A stretch of DNA of 64,000 bases from Candidatus Poribacteria bacterium (lineage in GTDB: Bacteria > Poribacteria > WGA-4E > WGA-3G). Position numbers and translations under genes: made by a program. Of the stretch, positions 6,563-60,098 are shown in pieces (position 1 is the first letter of the stretch; each line of letters begins with the position of its first letter). The notes below the pieces were generated by a model, which made no database searches, had not been told where the DNA came from, and saw only the letters and a list, made by a program, of their open reading frames with translations. The DNA lies in NCBI GenBank assembly GCA_022821965.1, contig JAJECN010000036.1, positions 1 through 64,000 on the forward strand. Reading direction: 5' to 3'.

Positions 6563-6580
6563 TTGGCATAAATTTTGCTT
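6563..6580 (+). promoter_or_regulatory. Sigma-54 (-24/-12) promoter upstream of glnA
   Basis: The bases TTGGCATAAATTTTGCTT match the RpoN consensus TTGGCAC-N5-TTGC at both cores, with GG (6565-6566) and GC (6577-6578) separated by exactly 10 bases. Transcription would start near 6590 and leave a leader of about 220 bases before glnA. glnA is the classic RpoN/NtrC target in other bacteria, which supports the reading. No activator gene is in the window. Confidence 0.6.
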
Positions 6581-6813: not shown

Positions 6814-8229
6814 ATGACACCAAGTGAGGTGGTTGCACTTGCAAAAGAACATGATGTAAAGATAATTGACCTCAAATTCATGGATCTGCCGGGGATGTGG
6901 CAACACTTTTCCCTTATGGCAAGCGAGTTGACCGAAGATCTCTTTGAAGAAGGTTGTGGTTTTGACGGCTCAAGTATCCGTGGTTTCCAGGCAATTAACG
7001 AGAGCGACATGTTGCTCTTTCCCGATCCAACGACCGCCCTTATTGACCCAGTCTGCAAGGTGCCGACGTTGAGCATCACATGTAACATCAAAGATCCTAT
7101 CACATTGGAGAATTACACGCGTGATGTACGGCATATCGCACAGAAAGCAGAGGCGTATCTCCAATCCACTGGAATCGCCGATACAAGCTACTGGGGACCT
7201 GAGGCAGAATTCTATCTCCTGAACGACATTCGCTACGGACAGGATCAGCATTCCGGTTTCTATTCTGTCGATTCTGTTGAGGGAAGTTGGAACTCAGGGC
7301 GTGAGGAGAATCCGAATCTCGGTTATAAACCGCGCTACAAAGAAGGGTACTTCCCCGTACCGCCCTCGGATACACTCCAAGACCTCCGCTCCGAGATCTG
7401 CCTTAAACTCATCGAATCCGGCGTTGATGTAGAAGTTCACCACCATGAAGTGGGAACCGCCGGTCAAGGCGAAATTGACATCCGTTTTGGTGAGTTAACC
7501 GAGACTGGCGATAAAATTGCGTTGTATAAGTACATCATCAAAAACGTGGCGCGTGAAAACAACCTCGTCGCTACCTTTATGCCGAAACCGCTCTTCCAAG
7601 ACAACGGTTCCGGGATGCACGTCCACCAGAGTCTCTGGAAAAACGGCAAGAACGTTTTCTACGACCCACAAGGATATTCGCTGCTGAGTGAGGACGCGCT
7701 CTATTACATCGGTGGCTTGCTGACGCATGCCCGTTCGCTCTGTGCAATTATCGCTCCGACAACCAACTCTTACAAGCGGTTGGTCCCAGGCTATGAAGCC
7801 CCGGTCAACATCGCCTACTCGCAGCGGAACCGTAGCGCGTGTGTCCGTATTCCTGTCTACTCGAAGAGTGAAAAGGCGAAACGGGTCGAATTCCGTACAC
7901 CGGATCCGTCTTGTAATCCTTACCTTGCTTTCAGTGCATTGCTCATGGCAGGGCTTGACGGCATACAGAACCGCATCCATCCGGGTGATCCGCTGGACAA
8001 AGACCTTTACGATCTCGAGCCGGAAGAACTCGCAGACATTGAGTCCACGCCAGTATCCCTGGGTGACTCCCTTGATGCTTTAGAGGAAGATCACGAATAT
8101 CTTCTCAAGGGCGATGTGTTCACCCAAGATGTCTTGGATGTTTGGATTGATTACAAACGTGAGAATGAGGTCGATGCGATCAACATGCGGCCCCATCCGT
8201 ATGAATTCTTCCTCTATCACGATATTTAG
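6814..8229 (+). CDS. glnA: Glutamine synthetase, type I
   Basis: GlnA makes glutamine from glutamate, ammonia and ATP. The protein is 471 residues, the normal dodecameric GSI length. It contains GCGFDGSSIRGF, the substrate/metal region EVHHHEVGTAGQGEIDI, GSGMHVHQS, and the ATP site region of SQRNRSACVRIP. Tyr399 lies in DKDLYDLEPEE, equivalent to the adenylylated Tyr397 of E. coli, which places it in the adenylylation-capable GSI-beta type. A perfect AGGAGG at 6801 fixes this start. An in-frame ATG 51 bases earlier would put the Shine-Dalgarno inside the gene. It is preceded by a sigma-54-like promoter and followed by the PII gene glnB, so its expression and activity are probably tied to nitrogen status. 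No glnE adenylyltransferase gene is in the window. Confidence 0.97.
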   Translation: MTPSEVVALAKEHDVKIIDLKFMDLPGMWQHFSLMASELTEDLFEEGCGFDGSSIRGFQAINESDMLLFPDPTTALIDPVCKVPTLSITCNIKDPITLENYTRDVRHIAQKAEAYLQSTGIADTSYWGPEAEFYLLNDIRYGQDQHSGFYSVDSVEGSWNSGREENPNLGYKPRYKEGYFPVPPSDTLQDLRSEICLKLIESGVDVEVHHHEVGTAGQGEIDIRFGELTETGDKIALYKYIIKNVARENNLVATFMPKPLFQDNGSGMHVHQSLWKNGKNVFYDPQGYSLLSEDALYYIGGLLTHARSLCAIIAPTTNSYKRLVPGYEAPVNIAYSQRNRSACVRIPVYSKSEKAKRVEFRTPDPSCNPYLAFSALLMAGLDGIQNRIHPGDPLDKDLYDLEPEELADIESTPVSLGDSLDALEEDHEYLLKGDVFTQDVLDVWIDYKRENEVDAINMRPHPYEFFLYHDI

Positions 8230-26397: not shown

Positions 26398-26922
26398 TTA
26401 TATTTCCTCATTTTGCATAAGGTAGAGTGTAATCTTGCCCTGTTTCCGTGAATATACAAAAACGCCCATTTCATTGAAATTCGGGCCTCCGACAATGATA
26501 AGAATGCATTCAGGACAGTTAGTTTTTGTATCCATTGTAATATCAAGTTGATTTCGGTCATCTGTACCACTGGGAGTAGGAGCACCGTCTGGATGACTGT
26601 GCCACTCACCTACATAATGTCTTTTACCGGAGAAGGTTTGACGCAACTTCGCAAAAAACTTACGTAAGCCAACTGTGCCTCTATAAAACGAAGTGCGCTG
26701 ACCTTTCGAGTCCGGACTTAAGGGGGCTAAGTCCAGTACAGAAGCCTCAAAACCATCATCAGAATAGCATCCAACCAATGATGTTCCAACTTCGTTTGGG
26801 TAGTGCTCCTGCGCCATTTCTGTCATCTTAAAAAGGCAGGGCTCTGAGATATAAACTGTATATTTTTTGCATTCAGAGTGCCATTTTAGCGAAGATTTAT
26901 TTGTCAATATTCTTTCTTCCAT
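26398..26922 (-). CDS. cap3: CBASS Cap3: JAB/JAMM deconjugating protease
   Basis: Cap3 removes the CD-NTase from its conjugates in type II CBASS defence and so opposes Cap2. The 174-residue JAB-domain protein has the full JAMM zinc site: Glu44 in NEVGTSLVG, then His108, His110 and Asp121 in GEWHSHPDGAPTPSGTD. It is the last gene of the four-gene minus-strand operon, and its ATG lies 19 bases inside the end of cap2. Translational coupling is likely. Nothing appears truncated. Without the neighbours it would be annotated as a generic Mov34/MPN/PAD-1 protein; the E1-E2 and CD-NTase partners make the CBASS assignment firm. Confidence 0.92.
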   Translation of the reverse strand: MEERILTNKSSLKWHSECKKYTVYISEPCLFKMTEMAQEHYPNEVGTSLVGCYSDDGFEASVLDLAPLSPDSKGQRTSFYRGTVGLRKFFAKLRQTFSGKRHYVGEWHSHPDGAPTPSGTDDRNQLDITMDTKTNCPECILIIVGGPNFNEMGVFVYSRKQGKITLYLMQNEEI

Positions 26923-28754
26923 GCTATCTTAACAAGTGGTCCGATTTGGACACCATTTTGTAGAACTGATTGTCTCTCGACAATTGCTGCAAGCCCACTT
27001 TCGGATTTGAAACTAATGGAATGACTGATAATATCTACAGCGTGTGCTGCTAGAATCTGCACGTGTGCATATTGGGCGGGAAAAGTTGAATGCCAACACC
27101 CGGCTCCCTCCATAATTTCCTCTTCTTCTGAGAGTTCATGAAAATAGACCCCAGGATCAATTCGGGTCCGATTCTGCTGAACAGAACGATTTAAATCCAA
27201 AAAGATGTCTCCACATGACTTGGAATCACCTGATATACAGATCGTGAGTAATTCGGCACCCAGGTTGAAGAACAAGGAAATCAGTCGTTTGCTGCTTTCT
27301 GCAGCTTTTTGGTTCAACCAATCAAACGCTGTTTCACTTGTGGTACAATCAATAAATATATCAGCAGCCTCAAGCACTTGATGAATTGTTTCATCTGATC
27401 GTGAGTTTAGAGGTATTCTTACATCATGTCCCTTAATTTTTGAAAGAGGGTTTGCTCTCGAAAGTCTCTCTGCTAGTTCTTCGGCTTTGTTTAAACCTAT
27501 AGATGAACCATCAAGAGAGTGACGACAGAAATTTCCGAACGCTATTGAGTCCGAGTCGAACAGATTAAGTTGTTTTACGCCGCCTCGTGCAAGTAATTCA
27601 GCGACGGAACTTCCTAATGCACCACAACCGAAAAGAGCAATGGATGCTGACTGAACCTCTGAGGGATGAGCCCCTCTTACATACAATCGGTCACTGGTAA
27701 TATTTTCTACGTTTCCCCATGGCAACGGTTGAAATGGTGAGAAACCTCCACTGCCTATTAATTTCTCCCAAATCTGACTTTGTCTACTAGATTGTGATTT
27801 AGGACGACGCTTTGTGCCTCGTTTTTTTGCCTCATTATAATTCTCAAAAAAGAGGGGTTGCCAGTGGATTTCAGTCGGATCCTGTCCAACAATTTTGGGA
27901 ATTGGGAAACCAATGAGGAGAATACCAAATTTACATGGATTTTCAAGAATCCACGCTGATCTGAGATTTCGGTAAAAATCCACATCATTTGCTGAACATA
28001 ATTTAACTATTTCCTCATAGGTATGAGGTGGACGGTGTCTTTCATAACGAATATCCTGAACAATAATCCATCTCCCCTTAATTTTACTATCTTTTTTCAG
28101 GATATTCTGAGCATAATCTGATTTTCCAATCGCTGAACCGTCTTTATCGCAAAATTTGACAGCAAAAATCGCAGGAATTCCTTCGCCCAGAAAGCATTCG
28201 ACATTTCCTGATGAGTTAATATGAGACTTCCAACTTTCGTAGGAATTAAGTGATTCCTCAAAAATCAAGAGGTCCTTTGTTGGCAGAGACAGATCTAGCT
28301 GTGTATGCCTGAAGTCAGGCAACTCATATGGATCGCCCGATTTAAGAAGTATGCCATTCGCGGCATCTTTGAGCCATTTGATTGCCCATTTGACGTAGCA
28401 AACAAGCCGAGAAGGATCCCGAGGTGCCAGACGTTCTTCGTGCAAACATAGTTTTCTTAATCCAGCAGCATCTTGATGTGGGAATCCGCGTACCTCTTCA
28501 CAAATAGGATAGATGTCCACTGGAGCATATGGAAAAGCTTCAGGCATTGAGACGTATAAAGGAATTTCACGCGGAAGATTTTCTTGATTCGGATACGGTA
28601 CTTGAACTGTACACTCAAATATCCAGTCCGTTGTCCCCTCTTTTGGGTTCTGTTGAATCGGTTCAGTAATTTCAACAATCCGGTGTTGAACCAAAAGATC
28701 GTATGCTTCCGCCATAACATCAGGGATTTCGCTTTGGTTTAATGCTTTATCCAT
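26904..28754 (-). CDS. cap2: CBASS Cap2: E2-E1 fusion conjugating enzyme
   Basis: Cap2 is a ubiquitin-transfer-like enzyme that attaches the C-terminus of the CD-NTase to targets and primes it for second-messenger synthesis. The 616-residue protein has an N-terminal E2-like domain (about 1-150) with candidate catalytic Cys103 in LRKLCLHEE. A linker follows, then an E1/ThiF adenylation domain with ALFGCGALGSSVAELLARGG (nucleotide loop), FDSDSIAFGNFCRHSL and the E1 catalytic-type Cys553 in GAGCWHSTFPAQ. These cysteines sit close to C109 and C548 of the studied Enterobacter cloacae enzyme (numbers from memory). Its ATG overlaps the CD-NTase stop (ATGGATAA) and its end overlaps cap3. The domain set is complete. 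Confidence 0.93.
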   Translation of the reverse strand: MDKALNQSEIPDVMAEAYDLLVQHRIVEITEPIQQNPKEGTTDWIFECTVQVPYPNQENLPREIPLYVSMPEAFPYAPVDIYPICEEVRGFPHQDAAGLRKLCLHEERLAPRDPSRLVCYVKWAIKWLKDAANGILLKSGDPYELPDFRHTQLDLSLPTKDLLIFEESLNSYESWKSHINSSGNVECFLGEGIPAIFAVKFCDKDGSAIGKSDYAQNILKKDSKIKGRWIIVQDIRYERHRPPHTYEEIVKLCSANDVDFYRNLRSAWILENPCKFGILLIGFPIPKIVGQDPTEIHWQPLFFENYNEAKKRGTKRRPKSQSSRQSQIWEKLIGSGGFSPFQPLPWGNVENITSDRLYVRGAHPSEVQSASIALFGCGALGSSVAELLARGGVKQLNLFDSDSIAFGNFCRHSLDGSSIGLNKAEELAERLSRANPLSKIKGHDVRIPLNSRSDETIHQVLEAADIFIDCTTSETAFDWLNQKAAESSKRLISLFFNLGAELLTICISGDSKSCGDIFLDLNRSVQQNRTRIDPGVYFHELSEEEEIMEGAGCWHSTFPAQYAHVQILAAHAVDIISHSISFKSESGLAAIVERQSVLQNGVQIGPLVKIAWKKEY

Positions 28755-29892
28755 ATCTGCGAGGACTTAAGTCACCTGTCGGTTTTTGGGCAGTTGTAGC
28801 AACAAAGGGACCCTTTGAACTGTTTCCTTTATTTCCGTTATCATCAGAATCATCGGAATCTGGAAACTTACTACCAAACAATTCTCGCCATTTCTTGATG
28901 GACTTTTCTTTATCCTGAATATCAAGAGCTTCGCGGGCAATTTCAGCTGCTTCCTTAGCGTGTTCGTAAAATGCGGCAAACTCTTCGCCTTCTACTCTAC
29001 CCAAGACATTATGTCTAGGAACACCGTGGTCAGGAAGAAAGGGGGTTTGTTTATATAGAGCGTACGTATCATAATTTGCAACAATAGTTTCTAAGGTCAG
29101 GGTAACCCCTTTGGCAACAGATGTTATTCTGTCGGGACAGCAAACTCCCACAAGATGTTCTAGTGGATAACCTTTCGGGCAGTCGTCCTCATGATTAACT
29201 CTCTGCCACCATTTTATTCCCTTGACGACATTAACGTAATGCTTATTACAACTCGCGTTCTTTTTCGATGTCCATTTAATCTGTTCTAACGGATGTGTCT
29301 TTTCCCAATTACCTGCATCTCGATTTGGAATCAATAACGGTTCAGTTTTCCATTCTTTCCCACGGATGCTTTCCAAAAAAGTAGTTTGATTTATCCGTTC
29401 ATCCGGCGGGATCCATGACTTCATTAGCAACCAATCATTCACATCTTCCAGTGTCAGATTTGTTCTGACAGCCTTGCTTTTGTAAATTTCTTCTTCAGCC
29501 TCGGACGGTGCTGAAGTGATGACAAGGTCGAGGTTCACATGCGAACGCTCAATACCAAACGAACGCCCCTGCTTCTGATATTTGCCTTCGTAATATTTAT
29601 CTAAAAAAGATAAAAATAAATCCATGGCCTTATCTGGATTGGGATAATCACATTGACTTAGGTTGGTTACAGTAATAATGTCTACATCTAACTTAGATTC
29701 CCCCTTCGGGCGAACAGCGGTAGCGCGGCGGTAACTTCCTTGTAAAAAAGTGCTTACGAGAATTGGTTTCAAATCCTCATCTCTGTGCAGTCGCTCTCGC
29801 AGCGTGTTATGCGCTGTTTTGCAATTATCCCTTTGATTTTCCGTAGGACGGATCTCTTTGAGAAATCTTGTAAAATAGGTTGGCAATTCCAT
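28747..29892 (-). CDS. cdn: CBASS CD-NTase (cGAS/DncV-like nucleotidyltransferase)
   Basis: CD-NTases make cyclic di- or trinucleotides on phage infection. The 381-residue protein shows the nucleotidyltransferase site FLQGSYRRAT (Gly52-Ser53), the metal-binding pair in LDVDIIT (Asp69, Asp71) and a third acidic residue, Asp122, in VNLDLVITSAP. It ends in RRYG; a C-terminal glycine is what Cap2 activates, so the substrate of conjugation is visible in the sequence. I chose the ATG at 29892 (GAGGAG upstream) rather than a longer frame that runs back into the effector gene. It is 19 bases after the SAVED effector and overlaps cap2. A SAVED effector suggests a cyclic trinucleotide product (CdnD-like), but clade and product need alignment. 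Confidence 0.93.
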   Translation of the reverse strand: MELPTYFTRFLKEIRPTENQRDNCKTAHNTLRERLHRDEDLKPILVSTFLQGSYRRATAVRPKGESKLDVDIITVTNLSQCDYPNPDKAMDLFLSFLDKYYEGKYQKQGRSFGIERSHVNLDLVITSAPSEAEEEIYKSKAVRTNLTLEDVNDWLLMKSWIPPDERINQTTFLESIRGKEWKTEPLLIPNRDAGNWEKTHPLEQIKWTSKKNASCNKHYVNVVKGIKWWQRVNHEDDCPKGYPLEHLVGVCCPDRITSVAKGVTLTLETIVANYDTYALYKQTPFLPDHGVPRHNVLGRVEGEEFAAFYEHAKEAAEIAREALDIQDKEKSIKKWRELFGSKFPDSDDSDDNGNKGNSSKGPFVATTAQKPTGDLSPRRYG

Positions 29893-29911: not shown

Positions 29912-31423
29912 TTAAGGTTGATAGGGGACACGTAAACTTGGATAATATCTTTCCTTGTAACGTTGTTCTTCAAAATCGTGTTCATACAGTTGGGTAACTG
30001 GGACAATATAACGAAGTGTATGACCAAGAATATATGCTAAAGCTGCTGGAACCGCAAAAAAGAGGTGTATCTTACGGCACGTATTAGGGAGCATCCCACG
30101 GAGTTGTTTATCAAGTTGATATCCGAGTTGCCAAGCATGATCTCCATCAGGTACTGCTTTGGGTCCGATACCTCCGATCGGACGAACTAAAATTTGGGGC
30201 AATTTGCTAAGCCCCTGAGCCTTTAAGTAAGGTTCCATCTCTTTCTGTACTTGATGTACCACCGAAATCCCTAAAACTAATTCTTCACCTATTTCACCGC
30301 TTGTTTCAAATTTCCAGAGTGGAGTATCAGTCTGGGGCGTATTCGGTTCCCAAAGAGTGAAGTTGCTCCCGTTCTTTTGTGTCGGTATAACGGAAATTCC
30401 ATGTTTAGGGCTAATCATGGAACCAGCTAAGAATGCAATACTCAGATGACAGTCAAAGAAGATATGAATGGGTTGGGGCAAATTGATCAGTTCTTCATTT
30501 AGCATGAGTGCTGAGACTCGTTCAGGAATTTCTTTTTTCCAATGTGAATCATCTTTGGGAAAGCGTCCATCAAAAAACAGCCGTAAATCGAGATGGGCTG
30601 CTTGAAGATCGCGGGGTCGTCGCGCGAACTGTGAGAAACTTTGAATGGAGATTTCACTATGTTTCGTGATTAGTGGGACCTTTAACTTTTCTTCCTCTAC
30701 CATCCGATTAAAATCCTCTTCATCAAACGAATGATGACCTTGCGCAAAAAGTTTCCAAGGGAGATCGTCGTAGACAACGTGAGTTACTGTAGGATCAATT
30801 GGCTGCAGATTAGCTAATTTAAGGAGCGGTTTCATCTGTCTTTCTAAATCTATAAGATTTTCCCCAAGTCTGAATCGAATAGTGTTTAAGAATGCGCTGA
30901 GCTCCTCTGCTGATACCGATAGGTGCTCTATCAATTCCGAGCGTACTCTACCTTCTTTGGTACTTGACCCTTTTTCATGAAAAGTTGAACAAAGCATTTC
31001 CTCATGACAATGCTTGGCAAGCACATCTTCTGAATCCCAAGGCCAACTGGAGACAACGTATAATCGGAACGTATCTGTCTCTAATTCCTCTAAAATTCTT
31101 AAATATGCCTGATGTAAACGTTTCAGCATTGAAGTCTTACTGTAGATGAAATCAGGATTAATCAGGTTTTTATAGGTGAATGCATTGCCAGATTTCATAT
31201 GGTACTTACACTGAAAGAAGTCTTGAACTACTTGCTTACCTGTCAGGCGGTCTTTTATTGGTTCACCGTAGGAAACAACAACGTCATCAACAAAGGGGGC
31301 TTCGTCGCTTTCAAAAGTAACAGATTCAATATGATCATCGGTTCCCAATTCAAGCAATTTCAGCCAGAAGAATCTAGCTTGGTATTCATCTCCTTTTCTC
31401 CGCGCGATGATGGCTTTTGCCAT
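29912..31423 (-). CDS. cap4: CBASS effector: N-terminal nuclease plus SAVED sensor (Cap4-like)
   Basis: Cap4 effectors bind a cyclic oligonucleotide through a SAVED domain and then degrade DNA. The 503-residue protein starts with a PD-(D/E)xK-type domain: GDEYQARFFWLKLL (11-24), acidic FVDDVVV (Asp46/47) and QCKYH (Gln71-x-Lys73), the D...QxK pattern of Mrr/DUF4297-like nucleases. The C-terminal third has the SAVED pattern ILVRPIGGIGPKAVPDGDHA, IHLFFAVPAALAYILGHTL and QLYEHDF. The ATG at 31423 has GGGAGGG at good spacing; the ATG 18 bases upstream does not. It is the first gene of the operon. A near-perfect sigma-54-type promoter and a GTGCCAA-A-TTGGCAC palindrome lie upstream. Confidence 0.88.
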   Translation of the reverse strand: MAKAIIARRKGDEYQARFFWLKLLELGTDDHIESVTFESDEAPFVDDVVVSYGEPIKDRLTGKQVVQDFFQCKYHMKSGNAFTYKNLINPDFIYSKTSMLKRLHQAYLRILEELETDTFRLYVVSSWPWDSEDVLAKHCHEEMLCSTFHEKGSSTKEGRVRSELIEHLSVSAEELSAFLNTIRFRLGENLIDLERQMKPLLKLANLQPIDPTVTHVVYDDLPWKLFAQGHHSFDEEDFNRMVEEEKLKVPLITKHSEISIQSFSQFARRPRDLQAAHLDLRLFFDGRFPKDDSHWKKEIPERVSALMLNEELINLPQPIHIFFDCHLSIAFLAGSMISPKHGISVIPTQKNGSNFTLWEPNTPQTDTPLWKFETSGEIGEELVLGISVVHQVQKEMEPYLKAQGLSKLPQILVRPIGGIGPKAVPDGDHAWQLGYQLDKQLRGMLPNTCRKIHLFFAVPAALAYILGHTLRYIVPVTQLYEHDFEEQRYKERYYPSLRVPYQP

Positions 31424-31509
31424 AAAAAAGTGCCCTCCCATTCGTAAACGTTATGTAAGATTGTTCCTATCCGATATATTCCAAAGATGCCAAAAAGGCA
31501 GACTAACCT

Positions 31510-31524
31510 GTGCCAAATTGGCAC
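31510..31524. promoter_or_regulatory. Perfect 15-bp palindrome in the CBASS leader
   Basis: GTGCCAA-A-TTGGCAC: two perfect 7-base arms around one base, about 45 bases downstream of the sigma-54-like site and 87 bases before cap4. A repressor operator is the simplest reading. Each arm also contains the TTGGCAC of a -24 box, but neither has a matching -12 GC at the right distance. Confidence 0.5.
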
Positions 31525-31568
31525 GAAATTCCAATAACAACTGTCAAATTCACTATCTATGAATATAG

Positions 31569-31586
31569 TAGCAATTTCCGTGCCAA
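31569..31586 (-). promoter_or_regulatory. Sigma-54 (-24/-12) promoter of the CBASS operon
   Basis: On the minus strand TTGGCACGGAAATTGCTA matches the RpoN consensus TTGGCACG-N4-TTGC at every conserved base, with GG and GC exactly 10 bases apart. Transcription would start near 31559 and leave a leader of about 135 bases before cap4. It is the strongest of three such sites in the window. Confidence 0.65.
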
Positions 31587-31880
31587 CTTTCCTGCAGTCA
31601 GCTAACACGCAGTGGATGAAATCATATAGTGGTACCCTTTAGGATGAGCGGTCTACAACGCTTTTTCACCAATACTATCCGGAAAAAAGCACTTATTAGA
31701 AGTTGCTGGGAGCCAAGTGTGCTGGAAGTGGGAATCCAGCTACAGATACGACATTGTAACTTTCATCAAGAATAGTGTCGTTTTGGTGGTGAGGACTATT
31801 GCTTGTATACCGTGAGTATCAATCAGCACCGAGTCAGACATAGTGTCTGACGATCTCCAATGGATGGCTTTATTATCCAT
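31587..31880. other. Non-coding stretch upstream of the CBASS promoter
   Basis: No gene is recognisable here. It holds a tight hairpin, GTCAGACA/TGTCTGAC (31833-31851, 3-base loop). If an activator of the sigma-54-type promoter binds DNA, its enhancer sites should lie here. Confidence 0.45.
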
Positions 31881-31957: not shown

Positions 31958-34900
31958 CTATTGAGGAGGAAGGTTACCATCTAAATCTTGGAAGATTGGG
32001 GACAGGTAACTGGTATCATCATGGTCTGGAAAGAGGATATGCCACTTTTCTTCCAATTCCTGCTTACCTATACCACCTCTATAACGTAGTTTGACAAGAG
32101 GTGTTTTTGAGATAATAAAGGAATCCATTTGTACATGTTCGCTACGGAAACGTTTGTAAGAAAAATCACGTAGTCTTTTGAAAAGGTTAATTTTTGGATT
32201 GTGTTCGTTGATTGGTTCATGTATCAGACCGTGTGGTTCAATGAAGACAATACGTTGTCTTGCACCTTCAAGGATCCATAGGATAAAGTCCGGATAGAAG
32301 CCTTCGTTTTCGTAGAAACCTATTCCTTTACCGCGGCTTTGGTTGCGTAAGAGAAAAATCTCCTTTTTAGCAAGATCCTTGTGCGGTTGACGTACATAAG
32401 ATCGGAGATCTCCTACAAAATCTTCCTCGCTTTTTTCTAAAGCAGGTGGCGTTATACGTAGCGTTGAGTCTGCTCCGCCTATAGTCAGAAGCGGTTGGTA
32501 TAAGTGTCGATCATTATGGATGTTGGGAAGATCAGTTAGATCAGGTCCATATATTCTACCATCTTCTATTAGGTGTCTGATGATTGGTTCGAGTTCGTCG
32601 GACTTATCTCGGGGAATGGAAACTTTCCAATCTATGAAGTTGGAATTCTTTTCGTCTAACTTTTTTAAACGCACACCTTCATCATTCCAACGTTTCTGAA
32701 TGATACGGTAGAATTTAGTAATGTATTTACGGAGGAGTGTGAGCACCAATTCCTCTAACTGTTTAAGTTGCTCCAATGATTCCGGCTCAACTTCAGATTT
32801 ATGCATAACTTTGAGTTCATACAAAGGATTATCCGTATTGAGGATATCCCTGAGAATATCAGCATCAAAAACGAGGTTGTGATACCCTCTCTCTTGCTTA
32901 TACTCAACAAGCTGAAGATAGATTTTTTCCCAATCAACCAGATCTAAGTACTGCTCTTTAATTGAAGTTTCATTTGCCGCTTCCGCGCTTTCGTCTTGGA
33001 TACTGTCTGCTGAACTACTACCGATAATACTAACGGTTTGGGTTGTGTGAGTAACAATTATATCTTCACACGCCTCAAGCATTACACATTTTCCTTTTGC
33101 AGCTTTGTCATAAGATAGGACTTTGGGAACATAAAGCCGTTTCGCCAGGTAATCCGTGTTAGGTTTGATCGGTAATTCCAGTTGGATTGGATCTTCGTGT
33201 GGAACCCCTTCGCGCTTGAGGTATTTTTGGAAGTCTGTCATAAAATTAGCACGCACGGCGAAGATATTGAGCGTTTCCAAAAGTGGTAGGTTAGGCGGAT
33301 GATCGCCATCAAGTGCAGTGCTACGTTTGAGACTCATGTTTTTGCCGCGTAGACGGACACCACGACCAAACAGCTGGATAATCTGCGACCCTTCCTGTCT
33401 GCCGATATTGAGCAGTCCCATTGTGGTAACTCGCCAACTGTCCCATCCTTCAATAAACTTTTTCGCGCCGATGAGTATATTGATTGAACTTTCGGGTTTG
33501 TTGATGGCGTTAAAGAGACTTTCTGTTAACACATCTTCAGGGTCCATGATGATTCCCGCATCGTCATTTTGAACGAGTTTTTTGAATTTGGGCACATCAC
33601 CAATATTGATAACACCAAATTCTTTGCTACCATGGGTGGTTTTTAAGGCGATTTCCCCCTGTGCATTTCGGACATCACAAAGATGTAAAGCACCGCTTGA
33701 ATCGGTATGGAAAATTTCCTTGAGGATGTCGGTATAGATTTGTGATGCCGCTTCTGCCGTGTTTTTAAGGTAGGCGAGCCGGTTCTTAAAAACATCGTTG
33801 CCATTGACATCGGATAATCCCGATGCACCATTTAGAATATCTTCTATACCTTGAATTGCCCATTTCTCTTCATTTCTTAGGAACCGATGCAGAAAGCGGA
33901 TAACGTTAAGGACATCTGAGCGTTCTTTTCCTTTTTCTTTATAGACAACTTTGGCGTTGACTCTGCTACCAACAAATGTCCATAAGGGTAATTCTAAGCC
34001 GTAGGCACGCACAGCCTCTATATTTTCCTTGAAATAGCGTTTCTGTTGATAGAAGCTGAGGAGATTCGCTAAAAAAAGTATTTCGGTTTGGGTTTCGTTA
34101 TCGTGGCCAACGTTGATGATACGGAAGTCCTTCCCATATCCATCAGTGTAGAAATACCGATAGGAATAATCAAAGGCAATTGCTTTTCCGTATTCATCAA
34201 CAAGGTCATCATCTTTCGCAGCAGCTAGTGCTTGTCCAAAAGTTGCACTGTATTCAAAGGTAAAACCGCTTTCGGCGAGTCTTTTGCGACGAGTCCGCCA
34301 GACTGCATCCTCACTACGAGTGCCTTTATGCCCTTCATCAACGAAAACCAAGTTCCTGCCTTCACATGCCTCAATTGGAACACTTACGCCTTCCGCTGTC
34401 TTTTCATCAACTAACTTATAGTTGTCAATGACCCGCACTACATCGCGAGCGTATCCTGCTCGATTGGCTTCAATTTTGAAAGGTTCACACGGAATGCAGG
34501 ATTTATCCATTTCCTGCATGTGTTGCTCGCTTAACCCTTCATTCGGTGTAATCAGCACAACGTTGTCCAACCCTTCTTTGCTATAGTGCAAATACTGGTA
34601 ATAGTTGATGTGCATGATAAGAGTTTTACCAGCACCTGTTGCCATCCAGAAAGCGATTTTTTCAATATCTGTTTCTAAGAAAGGGGTATCCATCGCGTCC
34701 CCGGGTGCTCTTGCATCATTACGAGTTTGGACGAAATCATTAAGTTGGCGTAGGAATTCCGCCGGTCTGTTGAATTTCCAATCCAAGAATATCTCGGTAT
34801 AGAGGAGAGCAAGATATTGAAAATAGCGGAGGACAATTGGTTGTGTGCGTCTGTTGTTTATGGCGGATAAGTGGCGTTTGATATTGGCATCGTAGATTGG

Positions 34901-35125
34901 TAATGGATCCTCAATCTCATTTTTTAAATTTGGGCGGGACATAAGGAATTCGCAGATTGGTGAGTATCCACTTGGGGTGAATCCCTCGTCAACGTTTGCA
35001 ACATCACTAAGTAGGTCACGAGTAGTTTCATACCCGAATTGGTCATTTAGCCATCCATGTAGGGTGAGATGGTTGTTGAGTTCTTTCGTTTTCTTTTTGG
35101 GCATAGTGGTTTCTTTAGCGGACAT
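31958..35125 (-). CDS. Type III-like restriction enzyme, Res (helicase-nuclease) subunit
   Basis: This 1,055-residue SF2 helicase-nuclease is intact. Walker A WMATGAGKTLIMH lies near residues 158-170 and the DEAH-like box LVFVDEGHKG follows. QLFGRGVRLRG is motif VI. Near the C-terminus, GFYPDFILWIL then VFIEPHGL matches a PD-(D/E)xK-type nuclease, although the usual Lys after E-P is His here, so cleavage activity should be checked. The ATG follows the mod stop with no gap (TAAATG on the minus strand), a clear sign of translational coupling. The CBASS cassette begins about 50 bases beyond its end. It is not closely similar to the broken res gene at 0.2-2.3 kb. Confidence 0.88.
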   Translation of the reverse strand: MSAKETTMPKKKTKELNNHLTLHGWLNDQFGYETTRDLLSDVANVDEGFTPSGYSPICEFLMSRPNLKNEIEDPLPIYDANIKRHLSAINNRRTQPIVLRYFQYLALLYTEIFLDWKFNRPAEFLRQLNDFVQTRNDARAPGDAMDTPFLETDIEKIAFWMATGAGKTLIMHINYYQYLHYSKEGLDNVVLITPNEGLSEQHMQEMDKSCIPCEPFKIEANRAGYARDVVRVIDNYKLVDEKTAEGVSVPIEACEGRNLVFVDEGHKGTRSEDAVWRTRRKRLAESGFTFEYSATFGQALAAAKDDDLVDEYGKAIAFDYSYRYFYTDGYGKDFRIINVGHDNETQTEILFLANLLSFYQQKRYFKENIEAVRAYGLELPLWTFVGSRVNAKVVYKEKGKERSDVLNVIRFLHRFLRNEEKWAIQGIEDILNGASGLSDVNGNDVFKNRLAYLKNTAEAASQIYTDILKEIFHTDSSGALHLCDVRNAQGEIALKTTHGSKEFGVINIGDVPKFKKLVQNDDAGIIMDPEDVLTESLFNAINKPESSINILIGAKKFIEGWDSWRVTTMGLLNIGRQEGSQIIQLFGRGVRLRGKNMSLKRSTALDGDHPPNLPLLETLNIFAVRANFMTDFQKYLKREGVPHEDPIQLELPIKPNTDYLAKRLYVPKVLSYDKAAKGKCVMLEACEDIIVTHTTQTVSIIGSSSADSIQDESAEAANETSIKEQYLDLVDWEKIYLQLVEYKQERGYHNLVFDADILRDILNTDNPLYELKVMHKSEVEPESLEQLKQLEELVLTLLRKYITKFYRIIQKRWNDEGVRLKKLDEKNSNFIDWKVSIPRDKSDELEPIIRHLIEDGRIYGPDLTDLPNIHNDRHLYQPLLTIGGADSTLRITPPALEKSEEDFVGDLRSYVRQPHKDLAKKEIFLLRNQSRGKGIGFYENEGFYPDFILWILEGARQRIVFIEPHGLIHEPINEHNPKINLFKRLRDFSYKRFRSEHVQMDSFIISKTPLVKLRYRGGIGKQELEEKWHILFPDHDDTSYLSPIFQDLDGNLPPQ

Positions 35126-38100
35126 TTACTGAGGAAACATCAATTGTTTGAATAATGGATCTAAGGATTTAGCTTTTGGAATGTTACTGTCTTTATTAAC
35201 ATATACTTCTGCTGCATCTTCTATTAGTTTATGCTCATGAACGAAATTGTAATCACGTTCGTAGTCTTCTTGTTTCCAGTCTGCGGTTTCACGCCAGATA
35301 ATGACAACCGATTTTTGCCCGACTGTGCCTTTGTAGATGAGGTAACGTCTATCATCGTCGTGCAGGCATCGACGCGTCTGAACTGATAAGCCGAGAAGGT
35401 AGTTGAAGGTTTCAGGTAGGTCTATGGTCTGTATTTGTGTCTGCATATTTTTGACGATATTAAGTTGATAACTGAAAGGATTTTGGAACTTGAATGTGTT
35501 TAGGAGCGTTGGGCTTTCCCTTGTATCGCTCTCCAACATATAACTCAATGGGTGTTCATCAAGTAATAGATTCTTACCTTCGGTTTTGTCGAGTTCTATA
35601 TTGTTGAGGGCATCTTCATAGGATTCAATGCGTTGGTATTTGATAATGTGAGAGAGACGACTTTCACGAGATATTGGTTTTGCCTCTTTCCATTTTTCGG
35701 CATAGATTGCCTTCAGAACTCGAGGTTTTAGGACGGTGTTAAAATGATGTCCCATCTCAATAAGGATGTATTTGCGCTTTCCTCCGTCTTGGCGATTGAG
35801 GTTAATGGCAGCGTGGGCAGTCGTTCCAGAACCTGCAAAGTAATCCAGCACAGTATCGTTTTTACCAAAAGAGGAAACACGAAGGCAATCTTCAACGAGA
35901 TGGATAGACTTGGGAAACGGAAATGCCAACGCGTCACCTAGCATATTTTTTAATAAACCGGTTCCGTAGGTCGTTGCTGAGTATTTTGCTTTGTCCGTGT
36001 CATCATTCTTGCAATTGTCGACTTGATCTTCATCCTCTGCATATTCTATTTTACCCCACCATGTTGTTGGCAATGTTCCTTCTTCGTTTAAAAAGCGTTT
36101 GAAACGGATTGAAATATTGTCATTATTGTCTGTTTTTGAAGATATTTCAGATAATGCTAGTTTTTCTTTGAGTGTTTTAACTTCAAAGTTCCATGTCATC
36201 TCTTCACCATTTTCGTTGATTGGCCAAATCTCTTTTTCACCAGGGCGCGCTGTCTCTTCAAGAGACCATTCTCGTGATGTGCTACTCCAATCCATTTTGG
36301 GAATTCGAATATGATTATCCTTGACAAAAATTGGATAAAACAAGCGCGGTCTAGCAATTCGTCGGGCATTAGGTCCGCCAGATTTTCTGAGAGATCTCCA
36401 TTGGAAACGATGTCCATTTTTATCAACGTGTTTATAGTTTTCGAGCTGTCTTTTTGTCCATTCTAGGCGACTAATTTTTGAAGCTTCGCTTATTCCAAAG
36501 AACATTGCGTATTCATGGGCAGGAGCAAAGCCTCTTGGTCTTTTACGACCTCCTGGGTTGGAACAGACCGAGACAATTCCGAGCTCGTTTTTTTTCCTAA
36601 ATAGGTGTTGGAGAAGATATCGGAGGTTGGAAGCCTCAACGTCATCAATGGCGGCACAGAAAATACTATTGCCCGCCAGCAATTCACGTGAGGTTGAGAT
36701 TCTATCTGCCATTAACGACATCCATGATGAATCCTTATAGTTATTCTTATATAGAATTGCAGAGGCATCGGTATTATAAGGCGGATCGATATAGATGGTT
36801 TTTAGGGATTCACGGTATTTCTCTTTCAACAAATTTAATCCTTGAAAGTTTTCTCCGTGAATAAAAATGCCATCTATTTCATTGTCTAAATCATGGAAAC
36901 ATGCTAGGAGGCGATCTTTGAAATCTGAATCAAAGTGGCAAGTATCCAGGACGAGATTTGGATTTTCTTTTAAGAAGTTAACAGAAAGTGGTTCCGTGTA
37001 GTCGGCACCTATGAGATTACTGTCTATTTCGTGAATAGCAAAAAGGTTTTTCCATTCATTGAGTTGATCCGTGTTCTGCGTGATTTCAGGGTAAAATTCT
37101 TCTGGAACGCGGTCAAGCGTGAGGCAATAGTTAGTAGAGAGAACAAACTTCTTTTTCAGCCAGAGACGTTTTTGGAACTCCTCAATGTGTACCAAAAAGT
37201 CAATAATTTTAGAAACTATGGAATTCACGAGTTTACTTGTTTCAATCCAATTTACTCTCTTTAAGCTATCCTCTTGAAAATTAGCATCATTAAAAATGAG
37301 TGAGGACAGCGGCATCACTTCGTTTTTGATGTAGACATCCAGTTCGCGGTTGAGAAATTGCTTAAGGTCTTTGTGAATGAAGAAGTCTGCGGTGTTGCGG
37401 ACTGTGTAGCGTTCAAAGTGTTTTTCAAGTATAGTTTTTGTGCCTATAGGTCGGTCTAATGCAGCATGAACTTTAAAATTGTTGCTAAACTGTTTTAATA
37501 TTCGCTTTCTCGATTTTACATTTATTTTATTTTGGATTTTGTCCTGTTGGGTTCGTTTGCCGTAGAGAGATTTCTCGTCATCAGTGAGTGGACGGTATTC
37601 AAATGGAATGCAAACCTCGCAGGTTTCTGAATTATACTTTGTTTCTACAGATAGGGGAATAAAGAAACGTTTCACACCTTGGACATTGTCTTTTTCAATA
37701 TCTACATCGCGGAGGTCAAAGATAACAGTAATACCTTGAGATTCAAATCTATAGGTAGGAAAATGCTCGCTGCTCTTGACGTAATACTGGTCGCGGTTTG
37801 CCCAGTGGAGATAGACCTCTTCACCGTTGTATGGAACAGCGTAGCGTTCCGTTTGGGAATAGCGTCTGCGCGGAATGAAGTCGCCGTTTTCGTAGTAGCG
37901 GGAGAAGAAGGTATAGAGATGGTTATAGACAGTATCTTCGCGTTGGTTGCGAGTTTGTGTTTCACCGCGTTTTTCTTTTGCTTCAAGGAATTTCTTGACC
38001 ACGGGAACCTGTGCAAACGCCTCGTTGATCGGGTTGTCATTTGCATCTAACATTCCGTCGGGGATCTGCTCTCGTAAAAATTCGATTTCTTTTCCCGCTG

Positions 38101-38293
38101 TATCTGCTTCGTCGTTTTCGTTGAGGGCCTCCTTGACGATGGTAGGAAGTTTCTCATCAATGAAGTTTTGAATCTGGTCGCGTCGATAGTTGATGATGCG
38201 GTAGATACCGAAGTCGAGGTCGGCGGCATCTGCGCGGAAGAGTTTTTGGAGGAGATTCTGTAATTTTTGTAAGGATTCTTGCATATTTTTCAA
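35126..38293 (-). CDS. Type III-like adenine DNA methyltransferase, Mod subunit
   Basis: This 1,055-residue methyltransferase modifies adenine in the recognition site to protect host DNA. Motif IV DPPYNTDAS (near residue 500) precedes motif I-type FAGSGTTAHAA (near 820), the beta-class order of type III Mod proteins. It is much longer than classical Mod (about 650). An N-terminal 450 residues of unknown fold (DADLDFGIYRIINYRRDQI-like start) precede the catalytic core, and a 180-residue region follows it. These extra parts are typical of large Mod proteins paired with a helicase and probably hold target recognition. res follows immediately. The system is likely a restriction-modification unit of the local defence island. 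Confidence 0.88.
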   Translation of the reverse strand: MKNMQESLQKLQNLLQKLFRADAADLDFGIYRIINYRRDQIQNFIDEKLPTIVKEALNENDEADTAGKEIEFLREQIPDGMLDANDNPINEAFAQVPVVKKFLEAKEKRGETQTRNQREDTVYNHLYTFFSRYYENGDFIPRRRYSQTERYAVPYNGEEVYLHWANRDQYYVKSSEHFPTYRFESQGITVIFDLRDVDIEKDNVQGVKRFFIPLSVETKYNSETCEVCIPFEYRPLTDDEKSLYGKRTQQDKIQNKINVKSRKRILKQFSNNFKVHAALDRPIGTKTILEKHFERYTVRNTADFFIHKDLKQFLNRELDVYIKNEVMPLSSLIFNDANFQEDSLKRVNWIETSKLVNSIVSKIIDFLVHIEEFQKRLWLKKKFVLSTNYCLTLDRVPEEFYPEITQNTDQLNEWKNLFAIHEIDSNLIGADYTEPLSVNFLKENPNLVLDTCHFDSDFKDRLLACFHDLDNEIDGIFIHGENFQGLNLLKEKYRESLKTIYIDPPYNTDASAILYKNNYKDSSWMSLMADRISTSRELLAGNSIFCAAIDDVEASNLRYLLQHLFRKKNELGIVSVCSNPGGRKRPRGFAPAHEYAMFFGISEASKISRLEWTKRQLENYKHVDKNGHRFQWRSLRKSGGPNARRIARPRLFYPIFVKDNHIRIPKMDWSSTSREWSLEETARPGEKEIWPINENGEEMTWNFEVKTLKEKLALSEISSKTDNNDNISIRFKRFLNEEGTLPTTWWGKIEYAEDEDQVDNCKNDDTDKAKYSATTYGTGLLKNMLGDALAFPFPKSIHLVEDCLRVSSFGKNDTVLDYFAGSGTTAHAAINLNRQDGGKRKYILIEMGHHFNTVLKPRVLKAIYAEKWKEAKPISRESRLSHIIKYQRIESYEDALNNIELDKTEGKNLLLDEHPLSYMLESDTRESPTLLNTFKFQNPFSYQLNIVKNMQTQIQTIDLPETFNYLLGLSVQTRRCLHDDDRRYLIYKGTVGQKSVVIIWRETADWKQEDYERDYNFVHEHKLIEDAAEVYVNKDSNIPKAKSLDPLFKQLMFPQ

Positions 38294-57388: not shown

Positions 57389-57406
57389 TTGGCATATTAT
57401 TTGCTA
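57389..57406 (+). promoter_or_regulatory. Sigma-54 (-24/-12) promoter upstream of the YibE/F gene
   Basis: TTGGCATATTATTTGCTA has GG (57391-57392) and GC (57403-57404) exactly 10 bases apart, and matches the glnA site closely (TTGGCAT, then TTTGCT). Transcription would begin near 57416, 70 bases before the ATG. Confidence 0.55.
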
Positions 57407-57485: not shown

Positions 57486-60098
57486 ATGAGAGAAAAAAAC
57501 ATCAAAATCATAGCGATCTTGCTCATCCTGTTGAGCGTCGCGGCGTTGCACATAAAACTCTATCGGTTCGCCGAGGTGACACATGACGGTGCCCTGCAGG
57601 TGTTAGTCTGTTTGGGGCGCGTTGTTCATATAGACACAAACGACGAGGCGGATCAAGTTTTGTCCTTCCGTATCCTTTCTGGTCAGTTTCGAGGCGAAAC
57701 TGTTCAAGTAAACAACGTTTGGACCGGACGCGCCTTCGGCGATCGCGTACTAAGCAAGGGAGATGTGCTATTCCTCGATATTCCGCTCCGAGATCCGTCA
57801 AATCCGAGAATTGACACCGTGTCAATGCGTGAATATTTCCGCACACCGTTCCTGCTCTATCTTGCGGGGGCATTGGGTGTCCTGATGATACTTGTCGCCG
57901 GTATGAAGGGTGTCCGAGCGATTCTGACGTTGTTTGTTACCGCATTCACCGTGCTTTATCTATTGGTGCCGCTGACGATCAGTGGTTACAACCCTATTGC
58001 GGTTGCGCTGCTGATTGCTGCCCTGCTGACGTTCGCAACCTTCCTTCTCATTACAGGATTTAGTTTCAAGGTAATCTCCGGTGTAATTGGAACGCTCGGC
58101 GGATTAGCCGCTGTTGGGATTTTGTCTGTCATTAGCCAGCATGCAATGGCATTGACCGGATTGGCGCAGGAGTTCGGTTTCTTGGAGCTTGGGATCGCGC
58201 TCTGGCGGACACCTGCCTCGCATCATTGGAATTTCACAGGTATTTTGTCTGCAGGCATCATCTTAGGTGCTGTCGGTGCAATGATGGATGTGAGCATGTC
58301 TATCTCCTCAAGCGTCCATGAGGTCAAGCAGGTGAATCCGAACATTACCGTCCGACAAGCGATCCGTGCTGGCTTGAATGTGGGCAGAGACATTATGGGG
58401 ACGATGGCGGATACGCTCATCTTTGCTTACCTCGGTGCTCACATGATGACGATGTTGCTTCCGCGCATCGATTTCCCTGAAGTCGGTGTTCTCTATCCTT
58501 TTCTCCGCCTTGTCAACGATGAAGCGACAGCAGTTGCGATTATTCAAGCTGTCGTAGGCACGATCGGATTGGTGCTCACGGTTCCGATTGCGGCATCGGT
58601 TGCCGGATTCCTCACGCAGTACGCGAAAGTAGACATATCTGAAATTCATGAAGACCTACCTTCGGAAGAGGAGTTAGAAGAGTTATTCCGTGCGGATCCA
58701 CCGCGTAGCAAAGCCCGAATCGCTGTTCCGATCGCGATGGTAATTGTTCTGGTCGGTACCATCTTTGTTTACTACCGTACGCATGACCTCTCCGCAACGG
58801 TTCTGGAGCAACGGGATGCAGATGGCAATCCTGTTAACAGGTCGGAGTACGCAAAAGGCAGAGTTGTCCGTTTGCTGGAATCCACTGCGAATTTCCTGTT
58901 TAACATTGACAGTAGTGCTACGGACGATCTGAACAACCTGATTGTTCCTTCGGCTTTACGTGAGGCATTCAGTAACCAAAAGATCCCGTTTTCCGATGAA
59001 GTCATCGTCTCAATTAAACCGTGGAAGGATAGCCGTTGGCTACTCTCGGATACGAAATATGAGCAGACGTATAGTATTCGGGCAATGGAGGATGACGGAG
59101 AGAATGTCCTCAATGTTTACGAGTCGAAAAACGAGCATCATATCCTTGAGGTGGAGATGCTGAGTGGGATGTATAAAGGTAGACGCTTAGTGCTGCGGAA
59201 CATTGTGAATCACAATATGCCGTTGTTGAGCATTCCTGCGGAACCGGGAGATGTCATCCTTTGTCGGGTCGCAGGAGACCCGGAACAGGTTAGTCTCGTT
59301 AATATTGTCCAAGATTACGGTAGGGATCGATTTCTGATTTGGATGGTAGGTGGGATGCTGCTACTTATTATCCTCGTGGGTAGACTTGAGGGCATTCGTA
59401 CGGCGTGTGCGATGCTAATGTCTGCTGGGGTTATCTATTTCTTCATGCTACCCTTGATTTCGCAAGGTGCAAATGCCGTATTCATCGTGACGCTGACTTC
59501 GGGAGTCGTGGCGTTTGTGTCTCTGGTATTCGTGATCGGTCCAAGCCGGAAAACGTTTTCGGCTGTGCTGGGAACGATGGGTGGAATCTTGGTTGCGGGT
59601 CTGATTGTCCTGTTCGCGCAGCAGCATCTCCATTTTTCTGGGTTAGAGAATGCAATTTCGGCAGATATTATAGAAGCGACGCGGACACCACCGTTCGATT
59701 TCGTACAGATTCTCTTGGCGGGCATGCTGATGGGCGTGCTGGGTGTCGCTGTTGACGGTGCGATCGAGGTGGCATCAAGTATGGAGGAAATTCGCAGGGC
59801 AAATCCGAACATGCCGACCTGGCGGCTTATCGCCTCCGGCTTGAATGTCGGGACGGACATCCTTGGCACGATGGTGAATACATTGGTGTTTGCCTATCTT
59901 GGTGTCGAGTTGCTACTCGTCGTCACGGTTACAGCACCGAATCTGGACTTTTTCAAATCGCCGCCAGCACAGCTATTGAGTATCGGCGTCGTATCCGCGG
60001 AGATTGTGCGGTTGCTCGCTGGCACGCTTGGTTTAGTTCTGGCGATTCCAATCACGGCGATAATTTGTGCGTTCTGGAACCCGAAACAGAAGGCGTAG
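57486..60098 (+). CDS. Double-length YibE/F-family membrane protein
   Basis: YibE/F proteins are polytopic membrane proteins of unknown transport role, normally about 370-420 residues. This one has 870 and contains two units. Each has a soluble beta-type domain after one N-terminal helix (FRILSGQFRGETVQVNN in unit one; VEMLSGMYKGRRLVLRN in unit two). Each then has about six to seven transmembrane helices ending in the same signature. Unit one has GAVGAMMDVSMSISSSVHEV and GLNVGRDIMGTMADTLIFAY; unit two has GVLGVAVDGAIEVASSMEEI and GLNVGTDILGTMVNTLVFAY. The duplication is therefore old but complete. A sigma-54-like promoter lies upstream, and its last 47 bases overlap a minus-strand antitoxin gene. 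Confidence 0.87.
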   Translation: MREKNIKIIAILLILLSVAALHIKLYRFAEVTHDGALQVLVCLGRVVHIDTNDEADQVLSFRILSGQFRGETVQVNNVWTGRAFGDRVLSKGDVLFLDIPLRDPSNPRIDTVSMREYFRTPFLLYLAGALGVLMILVAGMKGVRAILTLFVTAFTVLYLLVPLTISGYNPIAVALLIAALLTFATFLLITGFSFKVISGVIGTLGGLAAVGILSVISQHAMALTGLAQEFGFLELGIALWRTPASHHWNFTGILSAGIILGAVGAMMDVSMSISSSVHEVKQVNPNITVRQAIRAGLNVGRDIMGTMADTLIFAYLGAHMMTMLLPRIDFPEVGVLYPFLRLVNDEATAVAIIQAVVGTIGLVLTVPIAASVAGFLTQYAKVDISEIHEDLPSEEELEELFRADPPRSKARIAVPIAMVIVLVGTIFVYYRTHDLSATVLEQRDADGNPVNRSEYAKGRVVRLLESTANFLFNIDSSATDDLNNLIVPSALREAFSNQKIPFSDEVIVSIKPWKDSRWLLSDTKYEQTYSIRAMEDDGENVLNVYESKNEHHILEVEMLSGMYKGRRLVLRNIVNHNMPLLSIPAEPGDVILCRVAGDPEQVSLVNIVQDYGRDRFLIWMVGGMLLLIILVGRLEGIRTACAMLMSAGVIYFFMLPLISQGANAVFIVTLTSGVVAFVSLVFVIGPSRKTFSAVLGTMGGILVAGLIVLFAQQHLHFSGLENAISADIIEATRTPPFDFVQILLAGMLMGVLGVAVDGAIEVASSMEEIRRANPNMPTWRLIASGLNVGTDILGTMVNTLVFAYLGVELLLVVTVTAPNLDFFKSPPAQLLSIGVVSAEIVRLLAGTLGLVLAIPITAIICAFWNPKQKA

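Follow-up and report, generated by a model that had tools for sequence, protein, structure and literature searches.

We found that a type II CBASS operon, cap4-cdn-cap2-cap3, is probably transcribed from a sigma-54 promoter as a member of its lineage's sigma-54 proteostasis (heat-shock) regulon, with an activator that would act through two dyads in the operon's leader. The sequence evidence for this reading consists of an exact promoter match, a conserved regulatory block, a box shared with chaperone genes and a different promoter type at homologous operons.

The sigma-54 site and the operon behind it

Minus-strand bases 31586-31569 of the window (the whole 64-kb stretch of DNA that was analysed) read TTGGCACGGAAATTGCTA and fit the pattern TGGCAYRNNNNTTGCW exactly, with the spacing GG-N10-GC. 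G004 and G008 below are two other species carrying the same locus.

31569..31586, minus strand: sigma-54 -24/-12 promoter TTGGCACGGAAATTGCTA; exact consensus, position weight matrix (PWM) score 25.9, identical in G004 and G008
31584-31583 (GG), 31572-31571 (GC) and ~31559 (predicted start), minus strand: promoter core positions, from the sequence
29912..31423, minus strand: cap4, SAVED-domain endonuclease; PADLOC effector E 1.6e-114, Pfam SAVED
28747..29892, minus strand: CD-NTase, cyclic oligonucleotide synthase; PADLOC cyclase E 9.5e-156, Pfam SMODS
26904..28754, minus strand: cap2, E1-E2 fusion; PADLOC E1-E2 E 2.7e-98, Pfam ThiF
26398..26922, minus strand: cap3, JAB isopeptidase; PADLOC JAB E 2e-37, Pfam Prok-JAB
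31958..38293, minus strand: type III restriction-modification genes res (31958-35125) and mod (35126-38293); a possible source of read-through, syntenic in G004 and G008

A CD-NTase, an effector, a Cap2 E1-E2 protein and a Cap3 JAB protein within one operon identify the system as type II CBASS. The start of cap4 was placed at ATG 31423 in preference to 31441 because that start is conserved in relatives, and the CD-NTase start at a conserved MELPTYF methionine; the end of the sigma-54 site lies 146 bp from ATG 31423 and 128 bp from 31441, the first ATG. Genes for res, mod, Uma2 and Fic lie upstream of the operon, and a FAD-oxidase-like gene, read by eye, lies downstream. Between res and cap4, at 31833-31851, there is a perfect palindrome, GTCAGACA-CTA-TGTCTGAC, partly kept in G004 and G008; having no T-run, it is not a typical terminator.

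Three exact matches to TGGCAYRNNNNTTGCW occur in the window. Beside the CBASS site there is one at 6564-6579 (plus strand), ahead of glutamine synthetase (6814-8226), and one at 57390-57405 (plus strand), ahead of a YibE/F-like gene (57486-59888). The 5.69-Mb genome holds 47 exact sites, versus 4 for a control in which the pattern was reversed, and 39 of the 47 are intergenic though coding sequence makes up about 80% of the DNA around them. The PWM was built from the genome's own sigma-54 sites, with the CBASS site included in the training set, so it is the count against the control pattern that provides independent evidence. On that matrix the CBASS site scored best in the window and joint best among the 47 genome sites, and Markov-simulated 64-kb sequences reached a maximum of 17.8. 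The match to the RpoN -24/-12 consensus with 10-base GG-GC spacing, as claimed in a preliminary description of this DNA, is therefore exact and above chance, and it stands clear of simulated sequence. Between the dyads and cap4 no candidate scored above 6.3, and a further sigma-54 site there was rejected. Many sigma-54 sites elsewhere in the genome precede genes for WD40, PD40 or DUF4159 proteins (at eight loci), and these beta-propeller and DUF4159 genes are an unusual sigma-54 regulon.

Sigma-54 promoters stay silent until an enhancer-binding AAA+ activator responds to a signal. The genome has a single copy of rpoN and ten strong enhancer-binding protein (EBP) genes (eight domain-scanned, two read by eye), six with receiver domains and none on the window's contig. 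We found no sigma-70-like promoter with at least 8 of 12 matches in the leader of the studied genome and rejected one there; weak 9/12 matches occur in the G004 and G008 leaders. A leader RNA element was likewise rejected (fold z -0.57, no Rfam match). The scanned adjacent upstream ORFs contain no HTH or WYL domain, and we rejected a local regulator beside CBASS; nor does a regulator gene of the CapW, CapH+CapP or CapK+CapS kind adjoin the operon. Conservation of the site at two orthologous loci, the presence of rpoN and EBPs, a leader free of sigma-70-like sites and upstream ORFs free of HTH and WYL domains make a sigma-54 gate requiring an enhancer-binding activator a well-supported prediction. 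This agrees with the preliminary description, which had proposed such a gate in place of a WYL/HTH repressor and had looked to rpoN and enhancer-binding genes in the same genome.

A conserved block and a box shared with chaperone promoters

The sigma-54 site is one end of a conserved block that also carries two copies of a dyad, TGCCAAnTTGGCA, absent from the preliminary description.

31475..31586, minus strand: regulatory block with promoter, start region and both dyads; 110/112 identical to G008, 107/113 to G004
31511..31523, no strand: dyad 1, TGCCAATTTGGCA; centre ~+42, exact box as at dnaK
31488..31500, no strand: dyad 2, TGCCTTTTTGGCA as read on the minus strand; differs from the box at two positions, centre ~+65

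Synteny in G004 and G008 extends over the entire locus (mod, res, promoter, CBASS, FAD oxidase). The block is 95-98% identical in these two species, whereas fourfold-degenerate cap4 sites are 55% (G008) and 66% (G004) identical. The 18-mer sigma-54 site and dyad 2 are unchanged in both, and in G004 the flanking pair of dyad 1 has changed symmetrically, from G..C to A..T. Past the block, the G008 leader is identical at only 29 of 52 positions, and on the upstream side of the -24 element G008 has a shorter, different sequence. The rest of the G004 leader is likewise well conserved beyond the block (48/51), which makes the G004 comparison weaker on its own. Taken with the diverged G008 flanks, the excess of block identity over that of fourfold sites argues for selection on the promoter, the start region and the two palindromes together. 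Among 98 genomes the block was found at the three CBASS loci only; as it lies nowhere else in them, we rejected a mobile promoter block. Since the three loci are syntenic, they may represent one evolutionary event.

Two exact copies of TGCCAATTTGGCA exist in the genome: one in the CBASS leader, the other at dnaK (HSP70), 54 bp upstream of the sigma-54 site there. Allowing up to one mismatch, the dyad lies near 5 of 46 sigma-54 loci, those of dnaK, groESL, clpB, hsp20 and CBASS (6 positions versus 0.04 in shuffles), and its overlap with the four chaperone loci has P ~3e-5. Genome-wide, copies at this threshold are about as frequent as the control (26 versus 20). By coordinates, every remaining copy is more than 300 bp away from any exact sigma-54 site, and the best sigma-54 score near the eleven other copies inspected with the PWM was 13.7. 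In 35 of the 38 genomes of the genus, a dyad precedes a sigma-54 site at a distance of 32-62 bp, 62 times in all, and the control gave none. Of 30 such loci examined, 20 precede HSP70, 5 ClpB and 1 Lon (a gene named by eye from sequence); the rest precede an ABC-2-like permease (1) or a secreted protein (1) or reach a contig end (2). HrcA was searched for and not found. Given the sharing with chaperone promoters, the recurrence in the genus and the outcome of the HrcA search, the box is most likely the site from which a proteostasis activator switches these promoters on.

Two further observations concern these promoters. In some species the dyad with a sigma-54 site stands ahead of genes for an ABC-2-like permease and for a secreted protein, and hsp20 has two tandem exact sigma-54 sites 88 bp apart (locus L012, 1501 and 1589), a doubling repeated in another species.

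At CBASS the dyad is exact and lies beside an exact sigma-54 site, as in the chaperone regulon, but the order is reversed: the sigma-54 site comes first and the dyads follow, centred some 42 and 65 bp past the predicted start, whereas at every chaperone promoter the dyads are upstream of the start. Among 85 genomes of the phylum this reversed order was seen at the three CBASS loci only. The DNA distance between dyads and promoter, ~50-70 bp, is similar to that at dnaK.

Promoter type at homologous CBASS operons

Nine further loci in relatives encode a Cap4 62-76% identical to the one studied here; two distant relatives from the scan of genome contigs were left out of later comparison. At six of the seven other homologous loci the promoter is near-consensus sigma-70: TTGACA-17/18-TATAAT (12/12) in G007, G016, G018 (C10), G023 and G047, and an 11/12 match in G041. 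A lone second cap4 in G018 (C61) has no clear promoter. The six operons have the same four genes in the same order as the studied one (PADLOC models), and four of them (G007, G016, G018 and G023) have a divergent XRE-like gene upstream, read by eye; the studied operon has instead a sigma-54 site and a heat-shock box. Neither a sigma-54 site nor the dyad is present at any of the seven loci, and the DNA examined at the genus's other CBASS or SMODS loci held no strong sigma-54 site or dyad. The conservation anticipated at homologous CBASS operons thus holds in G004 and G008, where the site is identical, and fails at the other homologous operons. Within this one CBASS family, then, regulation at the three sigma-54 loci is either derived or separate, and, judged by promoter sequence, promoter type has been exchanged among homologous operons.

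Four of the homologous operons show a divergent XRE-like gene, a consensus sigma-70 promoter and then a GTTCGTTAAGATAAAC-like sequence, a possible operator. By search count, the G023 cap4 homologue contains one in-frame TAA, which may reflect decay or an assembly error.

Control by a chaperone activator and its alternatives

We give roughly even odds to capture of this CBASS by the host's heat-shock activator via a downstream enhancer, such that proteotoxic stress would arm abortive infection along with DnaK, GroEL, ClpB and Lon. Sigma-54 polymerase would be held closed at the CBASS promoter, the one step of this scheme that the sequence supports. An EBP encoded elsewhere, activated by unfolded or damaged protein, would bind the TGCCAAnTTGGCA dyads at the dnaK, groESL, clpB, hsp20 and lon promoters and open the waiting complex. 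On the CBASS leader dyads, the same EBP would contact the polymerase by looping and open the complex, raising CD-NTase, effector and Cap2/Cap3 levels. Chaperones and CBASS would then rise together under proteotoxic stress, which lytic phage infection may cause; the promoter would merely arm the system, and killing would still need an infection cue that activates the CD-NTase. Binding, the sign of the effect, the signal and the identity of the activator are what we infer here. In the neighbourhoods of all ten EBP genes, as read, we saw neither a link to chaperones nor a dyad at any EBP gene, and therefore dropped naming the activator from gene neighbourhood.

Sigma-54 activators are able to act from downstream. 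At Bacillus subtilis rocG the activator box is downstream of a sigma-54-type promoter, beyond the gene; the CBASS box lies instead in the leader, ~42 bp after the predicted start. This known capacity and the dnaK-like dyad distance lead us to favour activation from downstream at CBASS. The main rival, to which we give a minor but appreciable share of probability, keeps the sigma-54 promoter and makes the dyads negative: the heat-shock activator or another dyad-binding protein at +42/+65 would block elongation, CBASS would be down or buffered during chaperone induction, and another activator would drive the promoter. The position of the dyads within the transcribed leader, found at no chaperone promoter, fits such a roadblock. 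It sits poorly with the dyad distance, and no other conserved activator site was found, the G008 DNA upstream of -24 having diverged.

An unlikely alternative is that the sigma-54 site serves nitrogen or some other non-heat-shock control and that the leader dyads are coincidental or meant for a different protein. Glutamine synthetase in the same window does have an exact sigma-54 site, and both -24 elements and the dyad half-site contain TTGGCA; but the glnA site has no dyad, on which ground nitrogen control was rejected, and the exact 13-mer, found only in the CBASS leader and before dnaK, is conserved in all three species. As the leader box is that of chaperone promoters and the glnA site lacks it, proteotoxic stress is likely to be the signal in preference to nitrogen. 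Of the two signals suggested in the preliminary description for its activator gate, stress thus gains support and nitrogen does not.

Marginally less probable again is a minor role for the sigma-54 promoter, with most transcripts of the operon starting at an unseen sigma-70 promoter or running on from the restriction-modification genes upstream. The genes res and cap4 share a strand and are syntenic in three species, and no terminator-like site was found between them. The gap between them is, however, 534 bp in the studied genome, whose leader offers no sigma-70-like site, and strong selection on the 112-bp block demands a function. That the site is a chance match, its -24 half being just another dyad half-site (TTGGCAC) with no sigma-54 binding, is very improbable: the -24 element does resemble a half-dyad (inverted repeat I2), but both the -12 element and the spacing match exactly, no other site in the genome scores higher, the excess over the control speaks against chance and the 18-mer is unaltered across all three species.

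The CBASS controls described so far, CapW/BrxR, CapH+CapP and CapK+CapS, respond to DNA damage with a repressor encoded beside the operon (PMC9122588, PMC13373217), and all those reviewed in PMC13373217 sense DNA damage through local regulators. They resemble the operon studied here in that transcription is held back until a stress signal; here, by contrast, the switch would be a positive sigma-54 one, with a distant activator and a protein-damage regulon, and no adjacent HTH or WYL gene was seen. For Planctomycetota and Bacteroidota, promoters of the sigma-54 type have been predicted at chaperone genes (PMC12316311), with dnaK, groESL and small heat-shock genes behind them as in the studied genome. 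In its excerpted text, that survey mentions neither an activator dyad common to these promoters nor an anti-phage system, CBASS or otherwise, among the genes of the group. The open-access papers searched describe no CBASS under sigma-54 (RpoN) control, although such absence is weak evidence.

Through the dyad, a heat-shock regulon can be defined in a lineage known from genomes. If our reading is true, CBASS belongs to the chaperone regulon and the host wires abortive infection into its global response to damaged protein. Alongside DNA damage, protein damage would then form a second class of CBASS arming signal, and the family would offer a natural case in which sigma-54 control took the place of a sigma-70 promoter accompanied by a local HTH gene.
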